A DNA stretch of 31,873 bases, taken from positions 1-31,873 of the IMG/VR virus record IMGVR_UViG_3300047376_000632. One strand, written 5' to 3'. A program made the translations under genes and the position numbers. Below the pieces are notes generated by a model that was not told the DNA's origin, searched no databases, and saw only the letters and a program-made list of their open reading frames with translations. The stretch comes from a virus. Numbering within the stretch: the stretch's first letter is position 1; each line of letters starts with the position of its first letter. This document shows, piece by piece, positions 15,814 to 31,619 of this stretch.

Positions 15814-16408
15814 TTATGGAACATTGACTAACTTTGAAAAAGACCTAAGCAAGTATACAGGTGCTCCTTATGTTGTGCTTACAGATAGTTGTACACATGC
15901 ATTAGAAATTTGCTTTAGATACAAGCAACCAGGTCCTGTTGTTTGTCCAGCAAACACTTATCTTAGTGTACCTATGATGTTACACAAACTAAACATTCCT
16001 TTTTACTATGATCACGAACCCTGGGAATATGAATATCGTTTTCCACCAAGCAATATCTGGGATAGTGCAAGAGCATTTGAACAGGGCATGTATCGTGCAG
16101 GACAACTACAATGTTTAAGTTTTGGACCTAGTAAACGTTTGGAAATAGGACACGGCGGTGCAATCCTAACAAACAAACTACATGAATACACTGCAATGAA
16201 GCGTATGGCTTATGATGGTAGAGATTTAAACATTAGTCCATGGCAAGATCAAAAAGACTTTGTTATTGGTTACCATTATAACATGCGATTAGAAGATGCA
16301 CTGCGAGGCACACAAATGTTACAAGATTTAGAACTAAAAGATAAACAATCACAACTAGTAAAATATCCAGATTGTAGCAAACTTAATATTGACAAATCAC
16401 CTAAATAA
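15803..16408 (+). CDS. Half-length DegT/StrS-family PLP aminotransferase
   Basis: The ATG at 15803 follows AGGAAG and gives 201 residues. It keeps the catalytic core of the DegT/DnrJ/EryC1/StrS family: LTDSCTHALE for PLP phosphate binding, PANTYLSVPMML, D87 in WDSAR, and Lys111 in LSFGPSKRLEIGHGGAILTN, the expected Schiff-base lysine. It ends soon after the YHYNMRLEDALRGTQM helix, so the small C-terminal domain found in the usual ~370-residue enzymes is missing. No frameshift continuation is seen downstream. It may be a naturally minimal enzyme, a regulatory PLP protein, or need a partner. It may aminate a keto-sugar made nearby. Confidence 0.8.
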   Translation: MRLSYGTLTNFEKDLSKYTGAPYVVLTDSCTHALEICFRYKQPGPVVCPANTYLSVPMMLHKLNIPFYYDHEPWEYEYRFPPSNIWDSARAFEQGMYRAGQLQCLSFGPSKRLEIGHGGAILTNKLHEYTAMKRMAYDGRDLNISPWQDQKDFVIGYHYNMRLEDALRGTQMLQDLELKDKQSQLVKYPDCSKLNIDKSPK

Positions 16409-16417
16409 ACTTACAAT
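16389..16417 (+). promoter_or_regulatory. Sigma70-type promoter for folE
   Basis: TTGACA (16389-16394), a 17-base spacer and TACAAT (16412-16417), one change from consensus. It overlaps the end of the aminotransferase gene. AAGGA at 16435-16439 precedes the folE ATG by 9 bases. Confidence 0.75.
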
Positions 16418-16448
16418 ACATATATTACTAAAGAAAGGAACTTAGTAC

Positions 16449-17141
16449 ATGGGAAAGACTTCCGATCTAATTAAACAACGACTAGAAGCGAACAACGTTA
16501 GATATTGGGCTAACGATAACATTGCTGATTACATTGAAGAAGGTGAGAAGCAACAACTAATTGACGAGGCAGTACCTGCCTTTGAAAACGTATTACAAAG
16601 TCTACTTATTGATATCAATACAGATCCTAACAGCATAGATACTGCAAGGCGTATGGCTAAGATGTATATCAATGAGATTATGAGTGGACGTTATGATCCA
16701 ATGCCTAACCCAAGTAGTTTCCCCAACTACATTGAAGGTGGCTATGAAGGCATGCTTGTAGTACGCAGTGAACTTACAAGTTTGTGTTCGCATCATCACC
16801 AGACTGTAAAAGGTGTTGCATATATTGGTATCATTGCAGGTCCTAAACTACTAGGATTAAGTAAGTACACAAGAATAGCACAATGGTGTGCTATGCGAGG
16901 CACTCTACAAGAAGATCTAAACGTTATGATTGCAAATGCAATTCAGAAAGAAACTGGCACAGAACACGTTGGTGTTTATGTACAAGCAACACATGGTTGC
17001 TGTGAGAACAGAGGCATTAGAGCGCATAGTAGTTTAACACAAACTACAGTGTTGCGCGGTGCATTTAAAGAAGATCCATCAGTGAAGAAAGAATTTACTG
17101 ACAACGTGAAACTCCAACAAGAGTTTGCTTGTGGCAAATAA
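16449..17141 (+). CDS. folE: GTP cyclohydrolase I
   Basis: This 230-residue protein has the family core: residues 111-128 (SLCSHHHQTVKGVAYIGI) with zinc ligands C113 and a following histidine, LGLSKYTRIAQ (135-145), and QATHGCCENRGI (179-190) supplying the third zinc cysteine. FolE opens GTP to dihydroneopterin triphosphate, the first step toward queuosine-type 7-deazaguanines and folate. With QueD and QueE in the same window, the deazaguanine route is the likely use. It has its own near-consensus promoter and overlaps the amidinotransferase by one base (TAATG), so these two are made together. Confidence 0.95.
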   Translation: MGKTSDLIKQRLEANNVRYWANDNIADYIEEGEKQQLIDEAVPAFENVLQSLLIDINTDPNSIDTARRMAKMYINEIMSGRYDPMPNPSSFPNYIEGGYEGMLVVRSELTSLCSHHHQTVKGVAYIGIIAGPKLLGLSKYTRIAQWCAMRGTLQEDLNVMIANAIQKETGTEHVGVYVQATHGCCENRGIRAHSSLTQTTVLRGAFKEDPSVKKEFTDNVKLQQEFACGK

Positions 17142-18034
17142 TGTTTCCATGGTCTAAAATAAAAATACATTCCACAAATGAATGGTCTCCCTTAAAAAGT
17201 GTAGTAGTCGGTGACGCACTAGGTGCATATAAACCTGACGGGCTACACTTTGAGGAACCTGGTGGCTATCGTAATGATATATTAGCACAGGCAACCATGG
17301 ATCTAGACCGTTTGGTTAGAACTTTACAACAAGAGAAAGTTAAAGTTTATCGCCCAGAACAACATGATTTTACCTGGACAGGTGGAATGTATAATTATTG
17401 TCCACGCGATAGGTTACTTGTAATAGGCGATACTGTTTTGGATTGTAATATGCAGTATCCAATGCGTAATGCAGAGTCTAAATATCTGGACTTTGTACTA
17501 AAAGATGCAAAACGTGTACTAACTGTACCACGCAACAAGGGTATATTTTTTGATGCTGCTAATGTTTGCAGACTAGACAATACACTGCTATATTTACAAA
17601 GTGTAAGCGGTAACAGAAAAGGTGCCCGCTGGTTACAAGCAGCATTTCCTAATCACACAGTAGAAGTTACAAAAACATATGGCGGTGTACACATTGACAG
17701 TACATTTAGTCCTGTTGCAGATGGACTTGTTGTAGTAAACAAGGATCGTGTCACAAAGAAAAAACTGCCCAAGTGTTTTAAAGACTGGGAAGTTATTTGG
17801 CTAGGTGATGAAGATCTAACACAGAAAAGTTTTTCTGGTGAGGCGTTCGCAAGTAACTATATACTACTGAACTTCTTTATGATTCGACCAGACTTGGCAG
17901 TAATTGATGACTGTCCTAAACTAGAGCAAGCATTAAGAGCAAATGGAGTACTAAGTTACACTGTTCCATTTGCACATTCGAGAACACTTGGCGGTGGGCA
18001 TCACTGCGCAACATTAGATTTACACAGGAGTTAA
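17141..18034 (+). CDS. Glycine-amidinotransferase-like enzyme
   Basis: This 297-residue protein has the order of the glycine amidinotransferase branch of the guanidino-modifying fold: NEWSPLKSVVVGDALGA near the N-terminus, YNYCPRDRLLVIG, FDAANVCR with D138, GGVHIDSTFSP with H184, and RTLGGGHHCATLDLHR with Cys289. D138, H184 and C289 fit the catalytic residues of human GATM. It should move an amidino group from arginine to a primary amine. Length is shorter than animal GATM but close to bacterial members. Start ATG 17141 overlaps the folE stop (TAATG). The acceptor is unknown; deazaguanine aminomethyl groups and amino-sugars are the candidates suggested by context. Confidence 0.88.
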   Translation: MFPWSKIKIHSTNEWSPLKSVVVGDALGAYKPDGLHFEEPGGYRNDILAQATMDLDRLVRTLQQEKVKVYRPEQHDFTWTGGMYNYCPRDRLLVIGDTVLDCNMQYPMRNAESKYLDFVLKDAKRVLTVPRNKGIFFDAANVCRLDNTLLYLQSVSGNRKGARWLQAAFPNHTVEVTKTYGGVHIDSTFSPVADGLVVVNKDRVTKKKLPKCFKDWEVIWLGDEDLTQKSFSGEAFASNYILLNFFMIRPDLAVIDDCPKLEQALRANGVLSYTVPFAHSRTLGGGHHCATLDLHRS

Positions 18035-18036
18035 AT

Positions 18037-18216
18037 ATGAGTAATGACGGACCACTATTAGAACACTTTAACAATATACCCGACGGGGTTATTCGACAAG
18101 AACTTACATCATACTACATGCGTGATGACAAGTTAATCAAGCATACTGTTGAGAGAACGTATAGTAGCGACGGCGACTATAACGATAGTACTGTTGTAGT
18201 ACCCTTAACAAAGTAA
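18037..18216 (+). CDS. Small phage protein, 59 residues
   Basis: ATG 18037 follows an AGGAG 6 bases upstream and lies two bases after the amidinotransferase stop. The product is short and polar, with VIRQELTSYYMRDDKLIK, then TVERTYSSDGDYND, ending VVVPLTK. It resembles short hypotheticals of T4-like marine phages in pattern, though I cannot name a function. Its phage-like character marks the left edge of the host-like transporter cassette that starts at 18272. Confidence 0.65.
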   Translation: MSNDGPLLEHFNNIPDGVIRQELTSYYMRDDKLIKHTVERTYSSDGDYNDSTVVVPLTK

Positions 18217-18222
18217 AAAAAC

Positions 18223-18257
18223 GGAGGATTCGAGCACCTCCAGTAAAAACCCTCGAA
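18223..18257 (+). promoter_or_regulatory. Leader with two mutually exclusive hairpins before the binding-protein gene
   Basis: GGAGG (18223-18227) can pair with CCTCC (18237-18241). TTCGAG (18229-18234), inside that loop, can pair with CTCGAA (18252-18257), just upstream of the AAAGGA before ATG 18272. The two stems cannot form fully together, so the arrangement could gate ribosome access or end transcription. Stems are only 5-6 bp, so this is a modest candidate. No U-run follows either stem, which argues against a simple terminator. Confidence 0.35.
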
Positions 18258-18271
18258 AGGAAAAGATCGAA

Positions 18272-19342
18272 ATGAATATGATTAAAACACTGGTAATTTC
18301 ACTAGCAGTTGTGCTTGGCATGACATTTAGTGCAGTTGCAGCAGACAAAGTAAAAGTTGGGTTTATCTATGTAGGCCCAATTGGTGACCATGGCTGGACG
18401 TATCGTCATGACATTGGTCGTCAGCAAGTAGAAGAAGCATACGGAGACAAAGTTGAAACAGCATTTGTTGAAAGTGTGCCAGAAGGTCCAGATGCCGAGC
18501 GTGTTATGCGTCAAATGGCAAAAGGCGGAGCAGATATTATCTTTGCAACAAGTTTTGGCTATATGCCATCAATGCTTAAAGTTGCAAAGGAGTTTCCAGA
18601 TGTAGCATTTGAACATGCAACTGGTTATAAGCGTTCAGACAACATGGCAACATATGGTCTACGCCTTTATCAAGCAAGACATGTACAAGGTATCATTGCG
18701 GGCATGATGACAAAAACAAACAAGATTTGTTATGTTGCTGCTTTCCCTATCCCAGAAGTTATTCGTGAGATTAACACATATTACTTGGGTGCAAAGAAAA
18801 TGAATCCAGATGTTGAAATCATGATTACTTGGGCAAACACTTGGTATGATCCAGGCAAAGAAGCACAAGCAGCAACAGTTATGATGGCTGAAGGTTGTGA
18901 CATGGTTGCACAGCACACTGATAGCCCTGCTCCATTGCAGGCTGCACAAGCAGAAGGAAAACTAGGTTTTGGACAAGCAAGTGACCAAATTAAGTTTGCT
19001 CCTAAAGCACAGTTGACAGCAACTATTGACAACTGGGGTCCTTACTATATTAAGCGTGTCGGTGATGTAATGAATGGCACTTGGAAAACAGGTGACTACT
19101 TTGGTCATATGGATGACGGTAGTGTACAAATGGCACCGTTTACTAATATGCCAGCAGACGTACAAGCAAAAGCACAGGAAATCAAAGATGCTATTGAAGC
19201 AGGCAAGTACTTTGCATTTACTGGCCCACTCAAAGACAACACTGGTAAACTACAACTTGCAGACGGTGAAGTAGCAACTGATTTACAATTGAATCAGATG
19301 ATGTACTACGTTGAAGGCATTAACGCAACAGTACCAAAATAA
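18272..19342 (+). CDS. BMP-family ABC transporter substrate-binding protein
   Basis: This 356-residue protein has a classical signal peptide (basic start, hydrophobic stretch, cleavage near AVA-A at residues 21-24) and no lipobox cysteine, so it should be free in the periplasm. The mature part follows the BMP/PnrA pattern: VKVGFIYVGPIGDHGWTYRH, IIFATSFGYMPSMLKVAKEF, YVAAFPIPEVIREIN, HTDSPAPLQAAQ and FGQASDQIKFAPKAQL. Known family members bind nucleosides or related purines. It leads the cassette 18272-24586, after a leader with possible hairpins and a good AAAGGA. Serine codons are more mixed than in the phage core. Such a periplasmic protein in a phage genome is unusual. Confidence 0.9.
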   Translation: MNMIKTLVISLAVVLGMTFSAVAADKVKVGFIYVGPIGDHGWTYRHDIGRQQVEEAYGDKVETAFVESVPEGPDAERVMRQMAKGGADIIFATSFGYMPSMLKVAKEFPDVAFEHATGYKRSDNMATYGLRLYQARHVQGIIAGMMTKTNKICYVAAFPIPEVIREINTYYLGAKKMNPDVEIMITWANTWYDPGKEAQAATVMMAEGCDMVAQHTDSPAPLQAAQAEGKLGFGQASDQIKFAPKAQLTATIDNWGPYYIKRVGDVMNGTWKTGDYFGHMDDGSVQMAPFTNMPADVQAKAQEIKDAIEAGKYFAFTGPLKDNTGKLQLADGEVATDLQLNQMMYYVEGINATVPK

Positions 19343-19390
19343 GGTGAAGCATTTTAGTTAAAGAACACCATCTATTAGAAAGGAAAAACA

Positions 19391-20329
19391 ATGAAACTAT
19401 TTAAGTATATGGCAGTTGGTCTAGCAGCAATGCTAATGGCAACTACCGCTCAAGCAAAAGAAGTAACACTTCTTATGGATTGGTTCCCCCAAGGTAACCA
19501 AAGTGTTTTCTGGCAAGCACAATTTGATACAAAATGGTCTGCGGATCTAAAAATTAAAGTCAAGTCAGGTGGCCCTAAAATTAACACTGCAGCAATGGTT
19601 GCGGCTGGACAAGCAGACTTTGGTCTACAGGGTTCAGACAGTGTTATGATGGCTAACAGCAAAGGTGCAGGCTTAGTTGCTATTATGGCTAACTTAAATC
19701 ACGTTCCTTACACACTAGTATTCCATCCAGACCAAGGCATTAAGTCTGTAAAGGACTTAGACGGCAGACGTTTTGCTGTTAAGATGGGTGTAACATATTG
19801 GAAGTGGGTAAAGGCTGAGTACGGAGTAAGTGCTGACGAATTTCCACTTAAAGGTGACTTAGGCTTGTTTGCAAGGGAAAAAGAAATGTTCCAACAAGGA
19901 TATTCACTTTTCTTACCTGCTAGACTTGCTGCAAAAGGTGTACCAACTGAGCAGATTACACTAGAGTCTTTAGGTTATAGACCTTACAGTGTTTTGTTTA
20001 CTACACAGAAGATGATTGATGAAAACCCAGAGTTAGTACAAAAGGTAATCACACAATTAAGAAAGTCTTTTGTAAAGAGTTTAAACAACCCAAAGCCAAC
20101 TGCGGATTTTATTCTTAGTAAGAGTAAAAAAGTTAACAGAGCAATCCACATGAATGCTATTGATTTAATGAAGAAGGACTTTCTTCCAAAAGACTATAGC
20201 AAACTAGGTTGTATGACTCCTGCACGTTGGGAAGAGAATGCCAAGCAACTAAAGCAGGTTGATGTTATTCCAGCAGACTTTGATCCAAAAGCAAGTTATA
20301 ACCTTTCATTTTTAGGCAACTGCGAGTAG
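19391..20329 (+). CDS. NMT1/THI5-like ABC transporter substrate-binding protein
   Basis: This 312-residue protein starts with a signal peptide ending AQA-K (residue 22). The mature chain opens VTLLMDWFPQGNQSVFWQAQ, then GGPKINTAAMVAAGQADFGL and GSDSVMMANSKGAGLVAIMA, then SVKDLDGRRFAV, typical of SsuA/ThiY-like periplasmic proteins. ThiY members bind pyrimidines, others sulfonates or aromatics, so a ring compound is plausible here. The ATPase and permease directly downstream are the matching ABC partners. A good AGAAAGGA lies before the start. By my count 8 of 18 serines use TCN codons against 1 of 37 in gp43, hinting at later arrival from a cellular genome. Confidence 0.9.
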   Translation: MKLFKYMAVGLAAMLMATTAQAKEVTLLMDWFPQGNQSVFWQAQFDTKWSADLKIKVKSGGPKINTAAMVAAGQADFGLQGSDSVMMANSKGAGLVAIMANLNHVPYTLVFHPDQGIKSVKDLDGRRFAVKMGVTYWKWVKAEYGVSADEFPLKGDLGLFAREKEMFQQGYSLFLPARLAAKGVPTEQITLESLGYRPYSVLFTTQKMIDENPELVQKVITQLRKSFVKSLNNPKPTADFILSKSKKVNRAIHMNAIDLMKKDFLPKDYSKLGCMTPARWEENAKQLKQVDVIPADFDPKASYNLSFLGNCE

Positions 20330-20339
20330 GAAAAACAAA

Positions 20340-21044
20340 ATGATTGCTGTTCAAAATGTAAGTAAACACTTTGAAAACAAGCAAGCATTATCAGAAGTAA
20401 ACTTAGATATTGCCACAGGCGAGTTCATCAGTATTGTTGGACCTTCAGGCTGTGGCAAGTCTACCCTACTTAGGATTATTGCTGATCTAGTAAGCACAAA
20501 CGGTGTTGTCACCAAGCCCGGTAAAGGCGCATTTGTATTTCAAGACAGTGCATTATTGCCATGGCGCACAGTACAACGCAATGTTGAACTGCTAATGGAA
20601 CTAGAAAAGACACCTGATAAGAAAACTAAAGCAGAACAAGCACTAGCACAGGTTGGACTTACAGGTTTTGAGAATCATTATCCACACGAACTAAGTGGCG
20701 GTATGAAAATGAGATTAAGTCTAGCAAGAAGTTTGGTATTAGAGCCAGAGTACTTGTTATTAGACGAACCACTAAGCGCAGTAGATGAACTTACTCGCGA
20801 AGTATTACAAGAAGAAATTTATGAAATTTGGCGTAAACACAAGTTTACTAGTATACTAGTTACACACAATGTTGCAGAAGCAGTATATCTAAGTAGCCGT
20901 GTTGTAGTAATGAGCCCGCGCCCAGGTAAGATCACAGACATAGTTGACATTCCTTTTAGCAAGCGCACACCAAAACTAAGATCAACTGCAGAGTTTAGTG
21001 CAGTATGTAACAACATATCAGGAAAGTTAAGAGCATGGAAATAA
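20340..21044 (+). CDS. ABC transporter ATP-binding protein (SsuB/TauB/ThiZ type)
   Basis: This 234-residue ATPase shows Walker A GPSGCGKST (34-42), the Q-loop FVFQDSALLPWR, the signature LSGGMKMRLSLARSL (from about 118), Walker B LLLDEPLSAVDE (from about 139) and the switch histidine VTHNVAEAV (about 173). All catalytic positions are intact. It would power the permease that overlaps its last 10 bases and receive substrate from the upstream binding protein. The size and LLPWRTV loop match the nitrate/sulfonate/taurine/pyrimidine importer class. Its serine codons are nearer to the phage core than those of the binding proteins. Confidence 0.95.
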   Translation: MIAVQNVSKHFENKQALSEVNLDIATGEFISIVGPSGCGKSTLLRIIADLVSTNGVVTKPGKGAFVFQDSALLPWRTVQRNVELLMELEKTPDKKTKAEQALAQVGLTGFENHYPHELSGGMKMRLSLARSLVLEPEYLLLDEPLSAVDELTREVLQEEIYEIWRKHKFTSILVTHNVAEAVYLSSRVVVMSPRPGKITDIVDIPFSKRTPKLRSTAEFSAVCNNISGKLRAWK

Positions 21045-21805
21045 AACGTACATTGCCGCCTGTGCTTATACTGGTTGCATTTATACTAAGTTGGCATATA
21101 GGTGCAACGATATATAATATGCCGTTCTTGTTACCAACACCAGGTGCAGTTGCAAGCACATTTGTTAGTGACTTTGGCATTATTATGACAGGACTTGCAC
21201 AAACATTTGAAGCAGCATTTACAGGATACATCGTTGCTGTTCTAATTGGTTTTGCAGTAGCAACTATAATGAGTTTAAATCACGTTGCTGAACGTAGTTT
21301 ATACCCATATGCAATACTGTTACAAACAGTGCCAGTAGTTGCAGTTGCTCCACTAATTGTATTATGGTTTGGGTTTGAAATGAAAAGTATAATTATTATT
21401 AGTGTAATAATAAGTTTGTTTCCAATCATCAATAACACACTACTAGGACTTAAATCTACACCAACTACACTAGTGGAATTATTTGAAATGCACAGTAAAA
21501 ACAGCATTGTTAGTTTTTTTAAATTACGAGTACCTGCTGCTCTTCCTGCTATATTCTCAGGGCTAAAGATAAGTGCAGGACTAAGTGTAATTGGAGCAAT
21601 TGTAGGAGAGTTCATTATTGGAAGTGGCAGTGAAGATGGTGGATTAGGTGTGCAAATTATATATGCACAAGCAGAACTTGAGACAGCATTAGTTATGGCT
21701 CTGATCACTGCTACAACATTGTTAGGGTTTACATTTTTTGCAACAATAAGCACTTTAGGTTATTATCTTATGCACAAATGGCATGAGAGTGAACAACGAG
21801 GATAG
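21035..21805 (+). CDS. ABC transporter permease (SsuC/ThiX type)
   Basis: This 256-residue membrane protein has about six hydrophobic segments, starting LPPVLILVAFILSWHIGA. Its cytoplasmic coupling loop lies around residues 150-172 (MHSKNSIVSFFKLRVPAALP), the place of the EAA motif in BPD permeases. PFLLPTPGAVASTFVSD near residue 30 is typical of the sulfonate/pyrimidine permease family. It would form a homodimeric inner-membrane channel with two copies of the ATPase. It starts within the last codons of the ATPase gene. Only about two of its serines use TCN codons. No permease of the BMP-partner type is present, so the BMP protein may share this channel or use a host one. Confidence 0.92.
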   Translation: MEIKRTLPPVLILVAFILSWHIGATIYNMPFLLPTPGAVASTFVSDFGIIMTGLAQTFEAAFTGYIVAVLIGFAVATIMSLNHVAERSLYPYAILLQTVPVVAVAPLIVLWFGFEMKSIIIISVIISLFPIINNTLLGLKSTPTTLVELFEMHSKNSIVSFFKLRVPAALPAIFSGLKISAGLSVIGAIVGEFIIGSGSEDGGLGVQIIYAQAELETALVMALITATTLLGFTFFATISTLGYYLMHKWHESEQRG

Positions 21806-21806
21806 T

Positions 21807-22817
21807 ATGACAACACTAAAACGCAGGCGACTTGGACTTACACATAGTACTGATAAGTCAGCAAACGGATACACACTGTATGCACCACAAACAGGAAACG
21901 GAAAAGTTATACTGCTAGATGCATCAGGACATGTACATCACAAATGGCAAATGCCTGTGCGTCCCGGACGTGACGCAGTGCTACTTCCAAACGGAAACTT
22001 GGGCTACAACGGTAGCCATGGTACAAGTGCTAACTTGTATGCTCCGTGGGACATCTGGCATGGTGGACATTTTATGGAAGCAACTTGGGATGGTGATATT
22101 GTTTGGGAACACGAGGACATCTATCATCACCATGATGCACAGTGGCTAGAAGATGGGCTAATATACACAGTTGCGGCAGAACACAATGGCAAACAAAGCG
22201 ACATTGTAAAGCAAGTTAATCGTGCAGGTGAAACTGTGTGGGAATGGCGTGCCTGGGAGCATTTATCAATGCAAAGATATCCTATACACCAATGTTTCTA
22301 CGATGATCACTGGCCCATGATTAATGGTGTACACAAAGTTGACAATCTAGTATATCTAAGTTTGCGTGTATGCAGTGGCATTATTGCTGTTGATATGAAC
22401 ACAGATGAAATAGTTTGGGAACTAGAATATCCTAATGTTGCACAACAACATTGTCCTACAGTAAACGATGGCAAGTTACTTGCATTTTGCAATGGAAACA
22501 TTCGTCCTGGTGTGCATCATAGTCGTATTGTTGAGTATGATCTTGCAACAAAGGAACTTGCATGGAGTTATGTAGATGACATGCCTCCTAGTTTCTTTAG
22601 TCCATATATGGGCAGTGCGCAAAGATTATGGAACGGCAATACATTTATATGTGAAAGTGCATTTGGAAGACTGTTTGAAGTTACACCTGAAGGCGAAACT
22701 TGTTGGGAATACGTTATTCCAGACTTTGCAGAATACCCAAAGCCACTTAACGAATTTATTACAGGCGAACAAAACAGTTGCTTTAAAGCACATAGATACA
22801 AGGACCTTCCGCAATGA
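21807..22817 (+). CDS. Arylsulfotransferase-like beta-propeller protein without signal peptide
   Basis: ATG 21807 follows ACGAGGA and lies just after the permease stop, giving 336 residues. The sequence repeats propeller-blade patterns: GYTLYAPQTGNGKVILLDAS, GHVHHKWQMP, GDIVWEHEDIYHHHDAQWLE, AGETVWEWRAW, TDEIVWELEYP and GETCWEYVIPD, as in the ASST/Arylsulfotran group. Many histidines could form an active site. Known bacterial ASST enzymes are periplasmic, but no signal peptide is visible here, so a cytoplasmic location is likely. Real sulfotransferase activity is not assured. It is ATGA-coupled to the oxygenase that follows, so both probably act on the imported compound. Confidence 0.8.
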   Translation: MTTLKRRRLGLTHSTDKSANGYTLYAPQTGNGKVILLDASGHVHHKWQMPVRPGRDAVLLPNGNLGYNGSHGTSANLYAPWDIWHGGHFMEATWDGDIVWEHEDIYHHHDAQWLEDGLIYTVAAEHNGKQSDIVKQVNRAGETVWEWRAWEHLSMQRYPIHQCFYDDHWPMINGVHKVDNLVYLSLRVCSGIIAVDMNTDEIVWELEYPNVAQQHCPTVNDGKLLAFCNGNIRPGVHHSRIVEYDLATKELAWSYVDDMPPSFFSPYMGSAQRLWNGNTFICESAFGRLFEVTPEGETCWEYVIPDFAEYPKPLNEFITGEQNSCFKAHRYKDLPQ

Positions 22818-23674
22818 TTCCAGTTATAGATTTTACCGGGGATACAGTACTAGATGAGATCAGAGATGCATACACAACTGTAGGCTTTGCAGTCTTTACC
22901 AATTCATTAAACACGCAAGATCAAACAGATATGACTGTATGGTGGAAACTGATGCAGGACTTTTTTGATATTGATGCCGAAACAAAACAAAAATACAAAT
23001 ATCAAAAAGAAAATAATTTGGGATATAGCATGGTTGGCGATGAGAATGTAGATCCAACCGCCCCCAAAGATATTAAAGAAAGTTTTAATTATAACAACAG
23101 TAGAATGCCAGAGGAACTATGGCCAACTGGCATAAATGGTTTTAAAGCAACTGCTCTCCAATCAATAGATATTGCAGATAGACTTACATTAAAGATATTA
23201 GAGAAGTTTGATACAATATTAGACTGTGGCACTACACTAGTAGATGCACATCTAAAACCCTATAATACTACTAGAGTAATTCACTACCCTGCGTATACTG
23301 GTCCACTAGAGGACAAGCAGATGCGTATAGGTGAACACAGTGACTACGGCACCATCACACTGTTATGGCAGATCAATGATGTGCCAGGACTTGAAGTACA
23401 GGATTTAGGAGGTGCTTGGCATCCCGTACCCTATGCAGAAGATGGTGTCGTAGTTAACATAGGCGATTTACTACAGCGTTGGACCAATGATTATTTTGTT
23501 AGCACCAAGCACAGAGTAGTAAACACACACATTGACCAAACACGTTACAGCATGCCACACTTTGTAGATCCTACACCAGGAACTATTGTGCAGAACTTGC
23601 GTAACGAGCCAAACAAGTATGATCCTATTGAAAGCAAGGAATACTTGATGTGGCGTTTAGCACAGAGTTATTAA
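22814..23674 (+). CDS. Isopenicillin-N-synthase-like Fe(II)/2-oxoglutarate oxygenase
   Basis: This 286-residue protein opens MIPVIDFTGD and TVGFAVFTN, the N-terminal pattern of the family. The iron ligands are H175-x-D177 (GEHSDYGTITLLW) and H233 (STKHRVVN), and R244-Y-S246 fits the 2-oxoglutarate RxS. All cofactor residues are present. Members oxidise small molecules, including free pyrimidines (thymine 7-hydroxylase), amino acids and alkaloids. Its place between an importer and two phosphoribosyltransferases makes a nucleobase or related ring the leading guess, as inference. It is ATGA-coupled to the propeller gene upstream. Confidence 0.9.
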   Translation: MIPVIDFTGDTVLDEIRDAYTTVGFAVFTNSLNTQDQTDMTVWWKLMQDFFDIDAETKQKYKYQKENNLGYSMVGDENVDPTAPKDIKESFNYNNSRMPEELWPTGINGFKATALQSIDIADRLTLKILEKFDTILDCGTTLVDAHLKPYNTTRVIHYPAYTGPLEDKQMRIGEHSDYGTITLLWQINDVPGLEVQDLGGAWHPVPYAEDGVVVNIGDLLQRWTNDYFVSTKHRVVNTHIDQTRYSMPHFVDPTPGTIVQNLRNEPNKYDPIESKEYLMWRLAQSY

Positions 23675-23675
23675 C

Positions 23676-24050
23676 ATGGATTTATTTCAAAAAGTAGACT
23701 TTATCAGTCATGCAGGCATTCCTATGAGTTGGAAAATTGAGTGTGATGCTATATCAAATGATGAATGGGCTGCACTAGCAAAAATGATCATGGAATATCA
23801 AACTGAACCTTTTAGGGCAGCAATTGGTATTCCACGTGGTGGTTCGCCCTTGGGTTTTGCACTTAATGCATACTGTACTGACGATCCCAATCATAAGTTT
23901 CTCATATGCGATGATGTGTATACAACAGGAACTAGTTTTAGAGAGTTCTTGGAGCAAGAAGGTCATGCCAGAGAAGATGTTTATTGTTGGACTGTGTTTG
24001 CTAGAAAGCCTACCACGGACGGTGTTCGCGCACTGTTTACTATGCCATGA
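23676..24050 (+). CDS. Small phosphoribosyltransferase-like protein
   Basis: This 124-residue protein has the PRPP-binding motif FLICDDVYTTGTSFREF with D79-D80, and an upstream GIPRGGSPLG loop that fits the type I fold. It opens FISHAGIPMSWKIECDAISN, a start seen in phage phosphoribosyltransferase-like proteins. It is shorter than full enzymes (170-210 residues), so the hood that reads the base is reduced and the substrate cannot be named; orotate-like is one possibility. It is coupled by ATGA to the apt gene after it, and the two may act on different bases. Confidence 0.85.
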   Translation: MDLFQKVDFISHAGIPMSWKIECDAISNDEWAALAKMIMEYQTEPFRAAIGIPRGGSPLGFALNAYCTDDPNHKFLICDDVYTTGTSFREFLEQEGHAREDVYCWTVFARKPTTDGVRALFTMP

Positions 24051-24586
24051 TAAAACATTATTTAGATCTTAAACAATACATTAGAAGTTATCAGGACTTT
24101 CCCAAAGAGGGTGTGGACTTTAAATGCACAGCAAGTTTATGTGCAGGTGAAGGCTTAAGACTTGTAAACAACTTTATGTATGATAACTTGCTAAAATATA
24201 TGCCCTGCGATAAAATTGTAGGATTGGATGCTAGGGGTTTTATTTTTGCTGGTGTGCTTGCACACAGGACACGCTGTCCGCTAGTGTTATGTCGCAAACA
24301 GGGCAAACTACCTGGTGCTACAGTAAGCAATACATTTGAACTTGAATATGGTACTGCTACAATGGAAATACAAAAAGACAGTATTAACAAAGGCGATAGA
24401 GTTATTATTATAGACGACTTGATGGCCACTGGCGGCACTATGCAAGCAGCCATTGATATGATATATGAACTACATGCTACACCAGTTGCCATTGCTGTTG
24501 CAATGGATTTGACTTATTTAGGTGGCAGTAAAAGTATAATACAGCAAGGAGTACCGTTTTATGCAGCAACAGAATACCAATCCTGA
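24047..24586 (+). CDS. apt: Adenine phosphoribosyltransferase
   Basis: This 179-residue protein matches APRT in length and motif order: IRSYQDFPKEGVDFKC near the N-terminus, GLDARGFIFAGVLA (59-72), the flexible-loop CRKQGKLPG and the PRPP motif VIIIDDLMATGGTMQAA with D123-D124. It should join adenine to PRPP to give AMP, saving purine synthesis during phage replication. It is the last clear metabolic gene of the uptake cassette and is ATGA-coupled to the phosphoribosyltransferase before it. Guanine or a deazapurine as substrate cannot be excluded from sequence alone. Confidence 0.9.
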   Translation: MIKHYLDLKQYIRSYQDFPKEGVDFKCTASLCAGEGLRLVNNFMYDNLLKYMPCDKIVGLDARGFIFAGVLAHRTRCPLVLCRKQGKLPGATVSNTFELEYGTATMEIQKDSINKGDRVIIIDDLMATGGTMQAAIDMIYELHATPVAIAVAMDLTYLGGSKSIIQQGVPFYAATEYQS

Positions 24587-24875
24587 TCACAACATACCTG
24601 GCGAACCACTAGTATATGAACGTGCCGCGGGCCTTGTATATGCAAGATATACAAATCCTGATCTGCGTCATATCAAACGTTGGATTATAGGCGGCGATCC
24701 TGAGGGATTTATTCCCGGTACCGGTATGCCTAAACCTGAAGAATGGTTGCATTTTCTACAGTGTACTCCGGACTGGAACATCATGCAAAAGTCTGATAAA
24801 CTACGAGAAATGTATACAGCGTTCCTCACAGAGCAAGACAAGTATGTTACATGGGAGAAACTAAATGGGCAGTGA
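24561..24875 (+). CDS. Small conserved phage protein
   Basis: This 104-residue protein starts inside the end of apt (26-base overlap). It contains EPLVYERAAGLVYARYTNPD, KRWIIGGDPEGF, and a C-terminal helix (LREMYTAFLTEQDKYVTWEK). The pattern VYAR...P...RW.IGG is one I associate with hypotheticals of T4-like marine phages, without known function. It overlaps the next gene by 11 bases. It marks the return to ordinary phage genes to the right of the host-like cassette. Confidence 0.65.
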   Translation: MQQQNTNPDHNIPGEPLVYERAAGLVYARYTNPDLRHIKRWIIGGDPEGFIPGTGMPKPEEWLHFLQCTPDWNIMQKSDKLREMYTAFLTEQDKYVTWEKLNGQ

Positions 24876-25162: not shown

Positions 25163-28100
25163 ATGTTAAGTAAATCTTTTACAACTGTTTTATTGGCTAG
25201 TACAACTGCTCTTGCTGCATGTGGCGGCGGTGGTGGTGGAGGTGGTGGCACACCTGGAACTACTCCTATTACAATTACAAACTTGGGCAGTGTAGATACA
25301 AACAGTATTAGCAGTGGATTTGCCAGTGTTATACAGCAAGTATCCCAGGATGGCATGGTAGATGCTAAAGAAACTGTTGAAGTTTTTGAATGGGTAAATG
25401 CAAACAGCAACATTGATACAGCAGAACTTGCAAAGTATAATGTTGATATCAACGGTACTACCTACACACTAAAGCAAGCATGGAATATGCTTAAAGGTTA
25501 CAAAGCACTTTACTATGATGGTAAAGAAGGGTTTTGGTCTGCACTAGTAGACAGTGGCGAATACAATGATGAAAATGACACGTTTGTTGAACTAAAACAA
25601 CTTGCACAAAATGACGATCCCGACTTTGCTGAAGCAATTGGTAAAGGTGAAAAGACTGTTGAACAGTTTAAAGATGAAAAAGGTATTGTAGAAAAGCCAA
25701 TTCCGGAAACTCCTGAAGAGCCAGTAGTTGAGGAACCAGTTGAAGACACTCCTGTAGTCGAAGAGCCAGTAGAAGAGACTCCAGTTGAGGAAGAACCTGT
25801 AGAACAAGAGCCAGTAGTTGAAGAGCCGGTAGAGGAAACTCCTGAAGAAGACATTCCTGTTGAGGAAGAGCCAGTTGAAGAAGAAGAGCCTGTTGATGAA
25901 GTAGCAGAAGAAACTCCTGAAGAAGTTGTTACAATTGTAAGTGAAGAAACACGCACAGAAGCAGAGTATTGGTTACGTTTGGACAAGGTGGCATTGCCAG
26001 AAGAGATATACAGCACGGATGTTGAGAGTGTACAAGAAGGCGACTATACTGTAACTTACAGGGTAACAACTTTTATTACTCCGGAAACACACACTCATGT
26101 GTATGCAACAGACACTTATACAACAACCACATACAGTGATGGTAGTGTTGTTGAGGAACTTACACTTCAAGCATTGCGTTACAGAGAGCCTGTTACAAAG
26201 TATCCAACTGCTACACAACGAGTAGAACGTTTAGAGATTGCTCGCGATTCTACTGGCAAAAAACAAGATGATTATGTAGAAGAAAGTGACCATGCGGACA
26301 TGGGCACACGCACTCCTGGATATGTTGCGGATGCAGGACATTATCAGACAGATGAGTTTGCCTACATAAGCAACAAACAACTCAGTGTTAGTAACTTTGA
26401 TGTAGCATACAGCCGAGGCTGGACTGGAAAAGGTTCAACTATTGTGATTGCAGACACAGGTGCATATACTGGACACACAGACTTAGATGGCAACATTAAG
26501 CATACAAAAGACTTTACAGGCACTGGAGTAGCAACTAGTTCTAATCACGGCACACACGTTGCAGGTATTGCTGGTGCTGAAAAAAATGGTGTTGGTATGC
26601 ACGGTGCAGCATTTGATGCAGATCTTGCTATTGCAAAAGTTTCTGGTGGAAGCAGTTATAGTTTCAGTAATGCAATTAAGGCTGCTGAATGGGGACAAAG
26701 CCTGGGCAGTGCTGCTATCAATGTTAGTGCAGAAATGAACTACGACAGTGCATTTCGCAAAAGCATTGTAAAGCAAGCAGAAGGCGTATACTATAGCACA
26801 CATTGGTACTATGGTGAGCATGGTTACAACGGTGCTGTTAATGAAGCAGTAAAGTGGAAAGCCGCACTTGGTAATGAGCAGGTACTTGTTAAAGCAGCAG
26901 GCAACGCAGGCTGGGATTACAGCGCAGGCATGAACCAGATGGCTACTGCTACTGATGCAAATGGTAACCTTATACTTGATGGTCAAATGATCGTTGTTGG
27001 TAACTGGGACCAAAACAACAACAAGATTAACGGTTCAAGCAACAAAGCAGGCACAGTTTGTGCAACTATGCAGAACGGTGTGTGTATTGATGCCGCAAAG
27101 ATCAAAGACTACTACATTATGGCTAACGGAACAGCAATTACTAGCACAGCAGAAAATGGTGGCTATGTTACAATGAGCGGTACCTCAATGGCTGCTCCTG
27201 TTGTTACAGGTGCTATTGCAGTGTTACATCAGATGTGGCCACACATGAAAGGCAAGCATTTGGTACAGTTAGTTTTGGTAACTGGCAACAAGGACATTGC
27301 AGGCTACGATGAAAACGTTCACGGACAAGGTTTGTTGGACATGGACACTGCTACACGCCCTGTGGGTGCTACTGGTATTCCTACTACAGGACGTACCAAC
27401 GGAGGCGTTAGTGCAGTAGCAGGTGGTGCAAACGTAGCGGGTGTTGCTGCAAGTCAGATGCAGGCACTTACAAGTGTTATGGTACTTGACAGTTTCGAGC
27501 GTGACTTTTATATTGACCTCGGTGATATGACACAGGATGTTGATACTAGAACTGCTAGTGTTGCAGAGCAAATGGGTGCAATAAACTACTTTGCAGGTTA
27601 CATGAACAATGATCAACATGTGGCAGTACCTTTTGCATTAACAGAAAACAGCAACATTGAAGTCGGAGTTGGTAACAGCACTGGGCATTACTTGGGCAAT
27701 AGTTTCCAAGGTACACTTGGTACAACTACAGACAGTAACACAGTCTATGCTAACTACAACTATACTAACGGTGGCTTTTACGCACAGGCTGGAATAGGTT
27801 ATACCAGTGTAAACTTTGATATGAACAACAGCATGATGGTAGATGCAGAAAATGTAATAAGTACCACTGCTACTGCGGGTTATGAGTTTGCTCCCGCTGA
27901 AGGACATACACTGGGCTTTGCAGTAAGTCAACCAGTTACAGTCGAAAGTGCAAAGTTTACTTACCGTGTGCCTACTAGCAGAACATTGGACGGTAATGTA
28001 ATTACAGAACTACAAACAGTGGACTTCCGCAACTCAGATCGTGAGATTGATTTGGGTACCTACTACAAGTTTGATATTACAAAAACTGGCATTAAACAAG

Positions 28101-28228
28101 TAGACACTGTTACAAACATGCTGGGCATACAAGGTAATGTTCGAGCATTTGCAGAACTACGCAACAAAATAGATAGCGTCAGCGAAATTGAAAAGCGCGG
28201 CGGTATTAACTTAAACTTAAACTTCTAA
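25163..28228 (+). CDS. Lipoprotein autotransporter subtilase (NalP/SphB1-like)
   Basis: This 1021-residue protein starts with a lipoprotein signal: lipobox L17-A-A-C20, followed by nine glycines. A spacer and a Glu/Pro/Val repeat (179-256) lead to an S8 peptidase domain (about 410-720) with D431 (VIADTGAYTG), H462 (NHGTHVAG), oxyanion N581 (AAGNAGWD) and S675 (SGTSMAAP), all intact. Residues about 775-1021 are strand-rich, amphipathic and end in phenylalanine (GGINLNLNF), as an outer-membrane barrel would. This order matches the NalP and SphB1 surface proteases of Gram-negative bacteria. A surface role in remodelling host proteins, receptor masking or release is inferred; a virion protease is an alternative. 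Confidence 0.88.
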   Translation: MLSKSFTTVLLASTTALAACGGGGGGGGGTPGTTPITITNLGSVDTNSISSGFASVIQQVSQDGMVDAKETVEVFEWVNANSNIDTAELAKYNVDINGTTYTLKQAWNMLKGYKALYYDGKEGFWSALVDSGEYNDENDTFVELKQLAQNDDPDFAEAIGKGEKTVEQFKDEKGIVEKPIPETPEEPVVEEPVEDTPVVEEPVEETPVEEEPVEQEPVVEEPVEETPEEDIPVEEEPVEEEEPVDEVAEETPEEVVTIVSEETRTEAEYWLRLDKVALPEEIYSTDVESVQEGDYTVTYRVTTFITPETHTHVYATDTYTTTTYSDGSVVEELTLQALRYREPVTKYPTATQRVERLEIARDSTGKKQDDYVEESDHADMGTRTPGYVADAGHYQTDEFAYISNKQLSVSNFDVAYSRGWTGKGSTIVIADTGAYTGHTDLDGNIKHTKDFTGTGVATSSNHGTHVAGIAGAEKNGVGMHGAAFDADLAIAKVSGGSSYSFSNAIKAAEWGQSLGSAAINVSAEMNYDSAFRKSIVKQAEGVYYSTHWYYGEHGYNGAVNEAVKWKAALGNEQVLVKAAGNAGWDYSAGMNQMATATDANGNLILDGQMIVVGNWDQNNNKINGSSNKAGTVCATMQNGVCIDAAKIKDYYIMANGTAITSTAENGGYVTMSGTSMAAPVVTGAIAVLHQMWPHMKGKHLVQLVLVTGNKDIAGYDENVHGQGLLDMDTATRPVGATGIPTTGRTNGGVSAVAGGANVAGVAASQMQALTSVMVLDSFERDFYIDLGDMTQDVDTRTASVAEQMGAINYFAGYMNNDQHVAVPFALTENSNIEVGVGNSTGHYLGNSFQGTLGTTTDSNTVYANYNYTNGGFYAQAGIGYTSVNFDMNNSMMVDAENVISTTATAGYEFAPAEGHTLGFAVSQPVTVESAKFTYRVPTSRTLDGNVITELQTVDFRNSDREIDLGTYYKFDITKTGIKQVDTVTNMLGIQGNVRAFAELRNKIDSVSEIEKRGGINLNLNF
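25697..25930 (+). repeat. Glu/Pro/Val repeat region in the subtilase
   Basis: About 78 codons encode degenerate repeats of units such as EEPVEETPVEEEPVE. The DNA repeats are imperfect (gaagagccagt, gaggaacctgt and similar), so length change by slippage is possible. Such spacers usually act as an extended, protease-resistant stalk between a lipid anchor and a domain. Confidence 0.8.
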
Positions 28229-28551: not shown

Positions 28552-28690
28552 TCATATAGCAATTCTAAAACTAGAAATTGCACTTGCTGAAGAAAAAATG
28601 AAATACAGTATTGCTATGAAACCTATTGTTGTTTATATGCAAAAAAGAGTGGAGGAACTAGTTTCCCAGGGAGAAGCAGATGACAAATAA
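28541..28690 (+). CDS. Small helical phage protein, 49 residues
   Basis: ATG 28541 overlaps the end of the previous gene by 11 bases. The product, MANNHIAILKLEIALAEEKM then a turn and VVYMQKRVEELVSQGEADDK, is helix-turn-helix in outline. It resembles the preceding gene in the order IAI...E...A / M.RRVE.L...L..QG. A tandem duplication is plausible. It overlaps the phosphoribosyltransferase start by 11 bases. No function can be assigned. Confidence 0.6.
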   Translation: MANNHIAILKLEIALAEEKMKYSIAMKPIVVYMQKRVEELVSQGEADDK

Positions 28691-29132
28691 AAGATACATC
28701 ACGCAAGAAGATATAAAGCACTCGTGCTTGGACATTGTACAGCAGATGTACAAGGATGATTGGCGTCCTGACTTTATCGTGGGTGTTACTCGCGGCGGTT
28801 TGTGGCCCGCTATGATGCTTAGTCATTATCTTGGAATTAAAATGTTCACACTGGATGTGCGCATGCGTGATGGTGATGAAAAAGAACACTGCGAATGGCT
28901 AATAGACGAAGCAACATGTGGAACCAATATTCTAATTATTGATGATATTAATGACACAGGCGAAACATTTACTTGGATACGCAATGACTGGGGGGTGTTA
29001 GAAAACAACCTAAGATTTGCCGCACTAATAGATAATGTTCCAAGTCAATTTGATGTAGATTATAGTAGTATTGAAATTAACAAAGCAGAAGATCCAGCAT
29101 GGATTGTATTTCCTTATGAGGAGTGGTGGTAA
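28680..29132 (+). CDS. Phosphoribosyltransferase, xanthine/hypoxanthine type
   Basis: This 150-residue protein holds the PRPP motif ILIIDDINDTGETF with D88-D89 and an upstream loop DFIVGVTRGGLWPAMMLSHY. The C-terminal PAWIVFPYEEWW resembles the WVVFPWE end of xanthine-guanine phosphoribosyltransferases. It probably salvages an oxopurine, complementing the apt gene. GGGAGA lies before ATG 28680. It is the third phosphoribosyltransferase-type gene in the window and lies outside the transporter cassette, so it may be an older phage gene. Confidence 0.85.
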   Translation: MTNKRYITQEDIKHSCLDIVQQMYKDDWRPDFIVGVTRGGLWPAMMLSHYLGIKMFTLDVRMRDGDEKEHCEWLIDEATCGTNILIIDDINDTGETFTWIRNDWGVLENNLRFAALIDNVPSQFDVDYSSIEINKAEDPAWIVFPYEEWW

Positions 29133-30008: not shown

Positions 30009-30491
30009 ATGCCACATTATTCAACAAAAACATACGGACACAACATTGGTCTTAGTGCAGTGTTCCGTCAACCACATGCAGATCATTCACACTGCAGATT
30101 CTTGCATGGATACAGTCTAGCATTTAAATTTACATTTAGTGCAAGTGAATTGGATCATCGCAACTGGGTACAAGACTTTGGTGGCCTAAAACCATTAAAG
30201 CAATGGCTCGAGGAACAGTTCGATCATAAAGTTGTTATTGACAGTGAAGATCCTCACATGGAAGATTTTTATCATTTAGAGAAACTTGGTCTTGCAGAGA
30301 TCACAGTGATGGATGGTGTTGGTGCAGAAAAGTTTGCAGAACATGCATGGCGGTTTGCAGATGAACTTGTGCGCAATCAAACAGCAGGGCGTGTGCAGTG
30401 CGAAAGTGCAGAGTGCAGCGAGCATGGCGCAAACAGTGCTATCTATACACCATGGAATGTGCGCAAGGAGCGTTTTGCAGATGATGCGTGA
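30009..30491 (+). CDS. queD: QueD, 6-carboxy-tetrahydropterin synthase
   Basis: This 160-residue protein shows the QueD pattern: histidines at residues 23-28, HCRFLHGYSLAF with Cys29 and H33, NWVQDFGGLKPLKQWL, FDHKVV (D72-H73) and a late VQCES strand. It would turn the FolE product into 6-carboxy-tetrahydropterin, step two of the 7-deazaguanine route. The usual LHGH is LHGY here, so one zinc ligand of the cellular enzyme is a tyrosine; a nearby histidine may replace it. An AGGAG precedes ATG 30009. It overlaps the MazG-like gene by 11 bases. Confidence 0.9.
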   Translation: MPHYSTKTYGHNIGLSAVFRQPHADHSHCRFLHGYSLAFKFTFSASELDHRNWVQDFGGLKPLKQWLEEQFDHKVVIDSEDPHMEDFYHLEKLGLAEITVMDGVGAEKFAEHAWRFADELVRNQTAGRVQCESAECSEHGANSAIYTPWNVRKERFADDA

Positions 30492-30738
30492 ACTAGATGC
30501 AAGACAACAACTAATGGTAATCACTGCAGAAGAATGTGGCGAACTAGTACAAGTATGCAGTAAAATATTACGACAGGGAACCTTTGATAAAAAGCGTGAG
30601 CATCTTGTTGAAGAACTCGGCGATGTATACTGCATGATGCAACTTATTCAGGAATGGGATATTGTTAGTTGGCAAGAACTAGAAGATCGTGCAGAAGTTA
30701 AGCGAGCAAAACTTAGTAAGTGGAGTGAACTAGTATGA
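30481..30738 (+). CDS. mazG: MazG-like nucleotide pyrophosphohydrolase
   Basis: I start it at ATG 30481 (next codon also ATG), with AAGGAG at 30465-30470; in-frame starts further upstream lie deep inside queD. The 85-residue protein has ITAEECGELVQVCSKIL (E17, E18, E21) and HLVEELGDVYCMM (E45, D48), the EExxE and ExxD metal-binding pattern of all-alpha NTP pyrophosphohydrolases. It would hydrolyse an NTP or modified nucleotide to the monophosphate. Lying between queD and queE, it may clean up or shape nucleotide pools for the modified base. It is ATGA-coupled to queE. Confidence 0.85.
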   Translation: MMRELDARQQLMVITAEECGELVQVCSKILRQGTFDKKREHLVEELGDVYCMMQLIQEWDIVSWQELEDRAEVKRAKLSKWSELV

Positions 30739-31619
30739 AACTAAGATATAGCGAAGCGTTTTACAGCGTACAAGGTGAAGGCAAGTTTGTAGGAGTACCC
30801 AGTGTATTCCTACGCACATTCGGTTGTAACTTTCGTTGTATGAACTTTGGACTTCCTAGAGGTACTCCAATGCGCAGTGAACAAGGAAAACACAATGCAG
30901 AAGTCAAAGAACTACTGGATAGTGGAATAGTAAATACAGTAGAGAAGTTTAATGACTTGCCTATTATCCACACAGGCTGTGATACATATGCAAGTATCTA
31001 TCCAGAGTTTAAAAAGTTTATGATGGATAGAACTGTAGATGAAGTTGTAGAACATTTACTAAGTCTCACGCCTGAAGGCAGTTGGACTATGGAGAACGGT
31101 CAAGACGTACACCTCATTTTTACAGGCGGAGAACCACTGTTAGGATGGCAGAAATTTTACGCAGAACTACTAGAACATCCACGTATGAAGGATTTAAAGA
31201 ATGTCACATTTGAAACAAATGCTACTCAATCCCTTAGGGAAGACTTTAGAAACTATCTCAACAATCAAGAGCGATTTACTGTCACTTGGAGTTGTTCCCC
31301 GAAACTTACAGTTAGCGGAGAATCTCAAACTGATGCTATTAAGCCTGGGATTGTTGCCGATTACGCTGGTGTTAATAACAGTGAACTCTATCTCAAGTTT
31401 GTTGTCGCTGATAGTATGGATGTGGACGAAGTTGCAGATGCTGTTCAAGCATACCGTGACGCAGACGTTAACTGTGCAGTATATTGTATGCCGTTGGGCG
31501 GACGTAGTGAAGAGTATACACTCAATGTTCAGCAAGTCGCAGAACTTTGCATGGAGCGAGGTTGGCGCTTCACGCCAAGACTACACATCAGCCTCTTCGG
31601 AAATGCGTGGGGCACCTAG
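30735..31619 (+). CDS. queE: QueE, 7-carboxy-7-deazaguanine synthase (radical SAM)
   Basis: This 294-residue protein opens RYSEAFYSVQGEGKFVGVPS, the QueE signature, followed by FLRTFGCNFRC (C31, C35). The third cluster cysteine is delayed to C82 in HTGCDTYASIYPEF, so 46 residues lie between the second and third instead of the usual two. LIFTGGEPLL supplies the GGEP motif, and FETNAT and KLTVSGES follow. It ends SLFGNAWGT. It makes the 7-deazaguanine ring, whose product QueC would turn into preQ0. The CDTYA context matches queuosine-branch QueE proteins. Fused reading with mazG upstream (ATGA) suggests matched expression. Confidence 0.92.
   Translation: MKLRYSEAFYSVQGEGKFVGVPSVFLRTFGCNFRCMNFGLPRGTPMRSEQGKHNAEVKELLDSGIVNTVEKFNDLPIIHTGCDTYASIYPEFKKFMMDRTVDEVVEHLLSLTPEGSWTMENGQDVHLIFTGGEPLLGWQKFYAELLEHPRMKDLKNVTFETNATQSLREDFRNYLNNQERFTVTWSCSPKLTVSGESQTDAIKPGIVADYAGVNNSELYLKFVVADSMDVDEVADAVQAYRDADVNCAVYCMPLGGRSEEYTLNVQQVAELCMERGWRFTPRLHISLFGNAWGT

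Follow-up and report, generated by a model that had tools for sequence, protein, structure and literature searches.

The virus record IMGVR_UViG_3300047376_000632 of IMG/VR is a single linear record of 31,873 bases (hereafter the window, the whole stretch analysed), and positions 18272 to 24586 hold eight genes that an earlier note, made from the letters alone, had described as one complete nucleobase-like uptake and salvage cassette of a phage. The phage is marine, and kin of the cassette genes turn up in numerous uncultured phages of the ocean. With moderate confidence we read them as a two-module phage cassette for nutrient acquisition, in which a BMP-type receptor for purines would work through an importer of the host together with a 2-oxoglutarate (2OG)-Fe(II) oxygenase (OXY) and the adenine phosphoribosyltransferase Apt, and in which a second module would add an NMT1-type importer with a propeller protein. 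The genes and their order, their recurrence, the predicted fold, the conserved sites and the purifying selection are established; the functions of the cassette proteins we infer throughout.

Two modules in one run of genes

All eight open reading frames (ORFs) are open and intact, lie on the plus strand and follow the order given in the earlier note, and seven have family matches in Pfam and NCBIfam. Neighbouring ORFs overlap at four of the seven internal junctions; the remaining gaps measure 48, 10 and 1 nt. The ratio of nonsynonymous to synonymous change (dN/dS) against other phages is 0.05-0.28 across the cassette genes (excluding saturated OXY pairs with L082, L083 and L114, and a 36%-identity Apt pair with L114, at 0.33); because these values are low, the genes are under purifying selection and are not chance ORFs.

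The cassette is a mosaic. Its core is formed by BMP (18272..19342) and OXY (22814..23674), and a second module, with the genes for the NMT1 receptor, ATPase, permease and propeller, lies exactly between them (19343..22813, plus strand). This module is absent from the relative L002, which matches the window at 90.6% over 16001-19336 and at 87.1% over 22814-24692, with nothing in between, and which is an empty site or a clean loss precisely at the module boundaries. Both modules look like bacterial-type genes now maintained by selection in phages.

Each module recurs. Relatives of BMP were found in 191 stretches of the viral collection, and the viral-locus counts given here use the best 80 of the 191. 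OXY lies on the same strand as BMP in 79 of the 80, and in 77 no more than 60 nt separate its start from the BMP match, with no ABC (ATP-binding cassette) genes in between; in L078 and L079 it lies 1669 nt beyond BMP, and the contig of L068 stops 19 nt after the BMP match. Neither NMT1 nor propeller was found in any of the 80 fetched stretches, an absence that is weak, like others in the viral set, since these contigs are fragments. Searches with NMT1, propeller and permease gave 29 further contigs, 23 of them with all four module genes. Among these 23, BMP is present in 11, OXY in 10 and both in eight; three of the eight (3300008735_001084, 3300008952_003580, 3300007512_002494) look like one phage, so independent cases of module, BMP and OXY together number fewer than eight. 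A second oxygenase, 27% like OXY, is borne by seven of the 23. The single cassette of the earlier note stands as a gene run but not as a unit, there being two modules that each recur in many viral contigs.

Several relatives differ in content. In L078 (11054-12722) and L079 a different insertion, 1669 nt long, parts BMP from OXY, and its ORFs by eye resemble the asparagine-synthetase/tRNA-synthetase and ClpP kinds; the junction may, because of this, be insertion-prone. In L084 (3250-4140) and its relatives a second IPNS-type oxygenase stands between permease and propeller, its best PDB match being an ethylene/succinate-forming enzyme. L096 (8270-9983) has, between BMP and NMT1, a 377-aa membrane protein, for which searches of Pfam, NCBIfam and PDB gave no match, and an Apt (NF005592, 230.5 bits, cut-off 143). 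L148 (PAAV01000031.1, 6482-15316), a contig in a Chloroflexi metagenome-assembled genome, carries BMP-NMT1-ATPase-permease-propeller of the phage kind, with isocitrate lyase and GMP reductase, both above NCBIfam cut-offs; it is probably a misbinned phage. The Apt of L096 and the GMP reductase of L148 extend the purine set in related phages.

That the stretch is a join of phage and bacterium made in assembly would agree with the bacterial type of the genes and with the lack of close relatives of BMP, OXY, NMT1 and permease among annotated phages. We rejected it, and hold its probability to be negligible: colinear phage flanks without the module occur in L002, L009 and L008; in L136, from another metagenome, the module stands among phage-type neighbours (FolE, then the module, then a phosphoribosyltransferase gene, the 24561 ORF and a subtilase); and the module recurs in 23 contigs. 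The G+C content, 0.38-0.41 within the cassette against 0.38-0.43 around it, likewise speaks against a join. The cassette belongs to the phage, as the earlier note had held, and its place in phage DNA together with its recurrence marks it as a candidate set of auxiliary metabolic genes.

The BMP receptor, OXY and Apt

The BMP/PnrA-like receptor passes the curated cut-off of PF02608 (172.7 versus 24.1 bits; 1.2e-50), and its best solved relatives are 3s99 (1.5e-117) and AtzT (3.4e-102). Its start, like that of the NMT1 protein, resembles a signal peptide by eye. According to passages of PMC6834077, the guanine site of AtzT is formed by Tyr45, Ser97, Phe98, Glu165, Trp194, Asn218 and Asn220, AtzT binds guanine with a dissociation constant of 0.11 uM and adenine with one of 2.5 uM, and adenine was modelled in the 3s99 structure. 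In our alignment the window BMP has W42, S94, F95, E162, W191, H215 and D217, identical to 3s99 at all seven positions and to AtzT at four. The set is kept in 84 of 84 viral loci of at least 70% identity (81 contigs and the window copy) and in 30 of 33 bacterial rows of at least 48% (tblastn; some genes enter as two rows), Tyr replacing W42 in the three others; in distant phage BMPs, Thr at H215 is the sole site difference (29 of 29 loci, 12 contigs).

Among four named bacterial relatives, three (Ruegeria, Paroceanicella and Rhodobacter) share the order xdhA-xdhB-xdhC-ATPase-permease-permease-BMP, and the Paroceanicella locus adds guanine deaminase, 8-oxoguanine deaminase, urate hydroxylase (PuuD) and UraD. 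In further bacterial genomes BMP neighbours include PF02653 permeases, XdhC, a molybdopterin subunit, a urate-oxidase-domain protein and adenosine deaminases, and in two 1.4-Mb genomes a phosphoribosyltransferase-like gene adjoins BMP. Because its seven site residues equal those of 3s99 and three of the four named relatives adjoin xdhABC, the window BMP is most likely a purine-base receptor, judged by sequence. The earlier note had cited nucleosides as the ligands of BMP proteins; the nearest solved relatives bind bases instead.

Bacterial receptors of this kind pair with an ATPase of about 500 aa and PF02653 permeases, whereas the cassette permease is of PF00528. No PF02653 permease was found in the window, nor in any of 12 related virus records (one being 316 kb long), absences that rest on fragments; the control was positive in 12 of 14 genomes. 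For want of such a permease there, the phage BMP probably uses the membrane importer of its host. NMT1 receptor, ATPase and permease make up, by family, a complete importer set by themselves, and two receptors sharing one importer appear unlikely. A BMP working with the phage's own NMT1-type importer would account for the joint presence of BMP, NMT1, ATPase and permease in 11 of the 23 complete-module contigs, from distant phage lineages; we nevertheless consider it improbable, given the 77 of 80 loci in which no ABC genes part BMP from OXY, the 80 stretches without NMT1 and the PF02653 partners of bacterial BMPs.

OXY is a 2OG-Fe(II) oxygenase of the IPNS kind (PF03171, 2e-20; PF14226 (DIOX_N), 8.8e-14). 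Its best solved relative is the thymine dioxygenase 5c3p (7.1e-25, first of 58), its metal triad is H175, D177 and H233, and its 2OG residues are R244, S246 and Y158. With the residue assignments in passages of PMC4787775 on thymine 7-hydroxylase, base-site residues Phe292, Tyr217, Arg190 and Asn87 are kept as F250, Y178, R154 and N68, and Glu122 and Asn294 are replaced by N92 and D252. The Asn68-Asn92 pair occurs in seven of 27 bacterial homologues. Alphaproteobacterial genomes with OXY within 3 kb of a BMP (37-38% identity) number at least four (G265, G038, G167, G331); in G265 the run continues with an ATPase, two permeases and AMP nucleosidase, and G038 is similar by eye.

Eight of 14 bacterial OXY regions were examined (L240, L242-L245 and L247 left out). 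In one, L250 (474-9011), an oxygenase with the Asn pair lies near the oxamate carbamoyltransferase AllG and proteins of the amino-acid-kinase and isochorismatase families, a neighbourhood that hints at allantoin (purine) breakdown. A single-sequence search for a bacterial parent of OXY gave none among 385 genomes at 1e-40, and the profile reached 154 of the 385 at 1e-15 (best 7e-57); by neither route was a near bacterial parent found in this set.

Apt (24047..24586, plus strand) matches Pribosyltran (8.6e-15), passes the cut-offs of NF002634 (171.5 versus 170 bits) and NF002636 (169.8 versus 125), which bears out the earlier identification, and misses others, e.g., TIGR01090 (156.7 versus 185.85); its best solved match is 5b6h (5.4e-32). 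Before it stands a small phosphoribosyltransferase-like protein of 124 aa (23676..24050, plus strand), with a sequence that by eye resembles a phosphoribosyl pyrophosphate (PRPP) loop, DDVYTTGTS, and without a match in Pfam, NCBIfam or PHROG. Outside the cassette, a further phosphoribosyltransferase (28680..29132, plus strand; PF00156, 2.4e-10; xanthine phosphoribosyltransferase NF006613, 54.7 bits against a cut-off of 138) is possibly part of purine salvage.

In the reading we favour, the phage BMP would be exported to the host periplasm as a purine-base receptor and would dock there on the host's own BMP-type importer, an ATPase with PF02653 permeases. OXY would then oxidise the base brought in, or a modified version of it, and Apt would convert the base to nucleotides for phage DNA, perhaps assisted by the other two phosphoribosyltransferases. 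Several observations weigh against this reading. Below 48% identity the exact site is lost in six of six bacterial BMPs, and the Azospirillum locus has two permeases and no purine enzyme within the stretch read. The same Arg, Tyr and Phe are found in 21 of the 27 bacterial OXY homologues and, being so common, do not tell the substrate; of the seven homologues that carry the Asn pair as in the phage, four were examined, and none has a BMP nearby. Apt matches occur in 24 of the 80 BMP loci, and in 19 of the 54 that extend 1 kb or more beyond OXY, so that Apt, named earlier as a cassette member, is present in the window but is not a constant partner.

The inserted importer and its propeller

The NMT1/THI5-like receptor (19391..20329, plus strand) is above the cut-off of PF09084 (86.6 versus 20.5 bits; 2.9e-24) and below that of the SsuA family TIGR01728 (59.8 versus 163.5 bits). 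PDB matches of its profile search include 4nmy (3.2e-17) and THI5 (9.1e-8), with no SsuA or TauA among them; its predicted model (predicted local distance difference test, pLDDT, 67.8) is too poor for a structure search. The ATPase (20340..21044, plus strand) matches PF00005 (ABC_tran; 3.6e-28), and scores of 209.9 bits for SaoA and 185.1 bits for the taurine ATPase are both below cut-off; the permease (21035..21805, plus strand) is of the BPD_transp_1 type (PF00528, 8.9e-23). Walker A, LSGGM, Walker B and EAA-like motifs were recognised by eye. The full importer within the phage, as first described, is borne out by Pfam and NCBIfam and is of type I.

The propeller (21783..22817, plus strand) is above the cut-off of PF05935 (Arylsulfotrans; 50.7 versus 24.2 bits; 1.8e-13). 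Its model (pLDDT 87.0) superposes on Cpz4 with Z 31.6 (root mean square deviation, rmsd, 2.7; 300 residues) and on E. coli ASST (3ets) with Z 28.9 (rmsd 3.1; 304 residues); the next propeller reaches only 21.8. In a profile alignment H223 falls on the sulfated His436, at which the H436N chain has Asn, and H223 is invariant in alignment A4. Passages of PMC13426309 give His252, His356, Asn358, Arg374 and Thr501 as ASST active-site residues with His436; of these, Arg374 is kept as R195, Asn358 as N181 and His252 as H117 (in a weak stretch), and Met replaces His356 (M179) and Thr501 (M276). The propeller enzyme of the earlier note can be specified as a predicted arylsulfotransferase fold with a catalytic histidine, in which the sulfotransferase nucleophile is kept. 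No signal peptide was seen by eye, from which a cytoplasmic location would follow.

Phage propellers form a single group (100/99), nearest to Rhodobacterales rows (86/73). Beside these Rhodobacterales propellers, the nearest found, the importer is distant, its ATPase at 36-40% and its permease at 23-25%, and the phage NMT1 receptor found no counterpart there. Relatives of all four module genes, at 43-58%, occur in Variovorax (plasmid CP063167), and a Streptomyces copy of the propeller likewise stands beside ABC genes. In Salmonella (PF00860, 9.1e-54), Pantoea and Burkholderia, relatives of the propeller adjoin a uracil-xanthine permease, of a family that transports nucleobases. One propeller family beside such varied transporters suggests that each transporter supplies the substrate of the propeller.

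The inserted NMT1-type importer would bring in a planar aromatic molecule and the propeller would handle it in the cytoplasm. It is quite possible, though short of probable, that this module instead imports organosulfates (aryl sulfates or sulfonates), supplies a cytoplasmic sulfuryl transferase and has no link to nucleobases, while BMP, OXY and Apt serve purines. The sulfated histidine, Arg374 and Asn358 are kept; ATPase and receptor are nearest to sulfonate-type families; and flavin monooxygenases, an FMN reductase and NrtA/SsuA receptors lie near the Variovorax and Streptomyces propellers, the monooxygenases suggesting sulfur compounds, counter to a nucleobase-like ligand. The two Met at the sulfuryl site, the missed SsuA cut-off, PDB matches with THI5 and without SsuA or TauA, and the uracil-xanthine permease partners argue the other way. 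As ligand we put a nucleobase-like ring slightly ahead of an aryl sulfate, the two being nearly even. For the NMT1 protein, the pyrimidines that the earlier note cited for ThiY-type proteins are no more than candidate ligands, and a sulfate ester is a possible one. Because propeller relatives adjoin uracil-xanthine permeases and yet the sulfotransferase nucleophile is kept, the earlier claim of one nucleobase importer with two receptors is supported only in part: the importer stands, and the sharing is unlikely on family grounds (PF00528 versus PF02653).

A wider proposal, which we put forward tentatively and hold to be rather doubtful, is that a widespread group of marine phages runs a pathway that scavenges nucleic-acid debris: the receptor would redirect a purine-catabolic importer of the host to DNA synthesis, OXY would make modified (e.g., methylated) purines usable by Apt and its kin, and the second importer would feed a ring compound to the histidine-sulfated propeller.

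The phage, its host and known systems

The window (G+C content 0.36-0.44) has no tRNA in its 31,873 bases and encodes a family B DNA polymerase, most similar to the enzymes of Sinorhizobium phage Phosso (51.0%) and Agrobacterium phage Atu_ph07 (47.6%), whose records measure 469 and 490 kb. A gp23 capsid protein (4.7e-98) in the 316-kb relative bearing BMP-OXY counts in favour of our reading of the phage; that it was not found in the other 11 of the 12 related records searched, fragments of 32-80 kb, counts against it. The phage polymerase is T4-like and, from the relatives of polymerase and BMP, the host is probably an alphaproteobacterium.

The cassette is flanked by an ORF of 59 aa at 18037 and by one at 24561-24875 without a match in Pfam, NCBIfam or PHROG. 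Elsewhere in the window lie a GTP cyclohydrolase I, a PTPS/QueD-like protein, a weak QueE-like radical SAM protein and a DpdA-looking protein (8919-10394, 16449-17141, 30009-30491, 30735-31619), the last by eye and without a Pfam or NCBIfam match; the set perhaps serves 7-deazaguanine DNA modification. A 1021-aa protein (25163-28228) begins with a lipobox-like stretch, contains a subtilase domain (PF00082, 2.2e-25) and by eye resembles an outer-membrane barrel; it is unusual in a phage, and a relative is found in L136 downstream of the same inserted module. The product of 17129-18034 looks by eye like an amidinotransferase/deiminase fold; Pfam and NCBIfam gave no match, and the one PHROG matched is of unknown function.

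In 50,697 annotated phage records, searched with BMP, OXY, NMT1, propeller, permease and Apt, no close relatives of BMP, OXY, NMT1 or permease were found. Matches were obtained for BMP in 13 records (all below 40%, all from faecal samples), OXY in one, NMT1 in two (21%), propeller in three (56-59%; these records bear Salmonella or E. coli names, and the label of one is that of a Salmonella genome contig), permease in five (none with 80% coverage) and Apt in 24 (all below 60%). A literature search at index level found no published description of the cassette. Phage DNA is usually held to derive from host nucleotides and new synthesis. With BMP-OXY in 79 of 80 loci and the complete importer in 23 further contigs, it seems that certain marine phages draw on ring compounds from beyond the host cell, purines being the likeliest; dissolved purines, purine importers of the host and phage yield become linked in a testable way. 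Leads to ligands are also gained for two little-known groups, the BMP-linked oxygenases and the cytoplasmic propellers of sulfotransferase fold.

Compared with known systems, the xdhABC-linked purine importer of alphaproteobacteria, with its BMP of the 3S99/AtzT kind, shares the receptor (52-58% identity), the ligand-site residues and the purine context; in the phage the receptor comes without PF02653 permeases or the double ATPase, and OXY and Apt are added. With the thymine 7-hydroxylase NcT7H (5C3P), as far as the passages on its active site go, OXY has in common the metal and 2OG residues and four of six base-site residues, the kept residues being common in the wider family, whereas N92 and D252 stand for Glu122 and Asn294. 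The PAPS-independent arylsulfotransferases ASST and Cpz4 have the fold and the sulfated histidine of the propeller, which is, however, 17-19% identical to them, without a signal peptide by eye and with Met for His356 and Thr501. The propeller-receptor-ATPase-permease unit of Variovorax matches the four module genes in another order, and neither BMP nor OXY was matched within the stretch read. Cyanophage PstS is a lone phage receptor thought to serve an importer of the host; its ligand is phosphate, whereas here it is probably a purine, and the receptor is joined by an oxygenase and, in certain phages, by a second full importer. Metabolic genes and lone receptors in phages were already known; the BMP-OXY pair with a second full importer is a new form of them.

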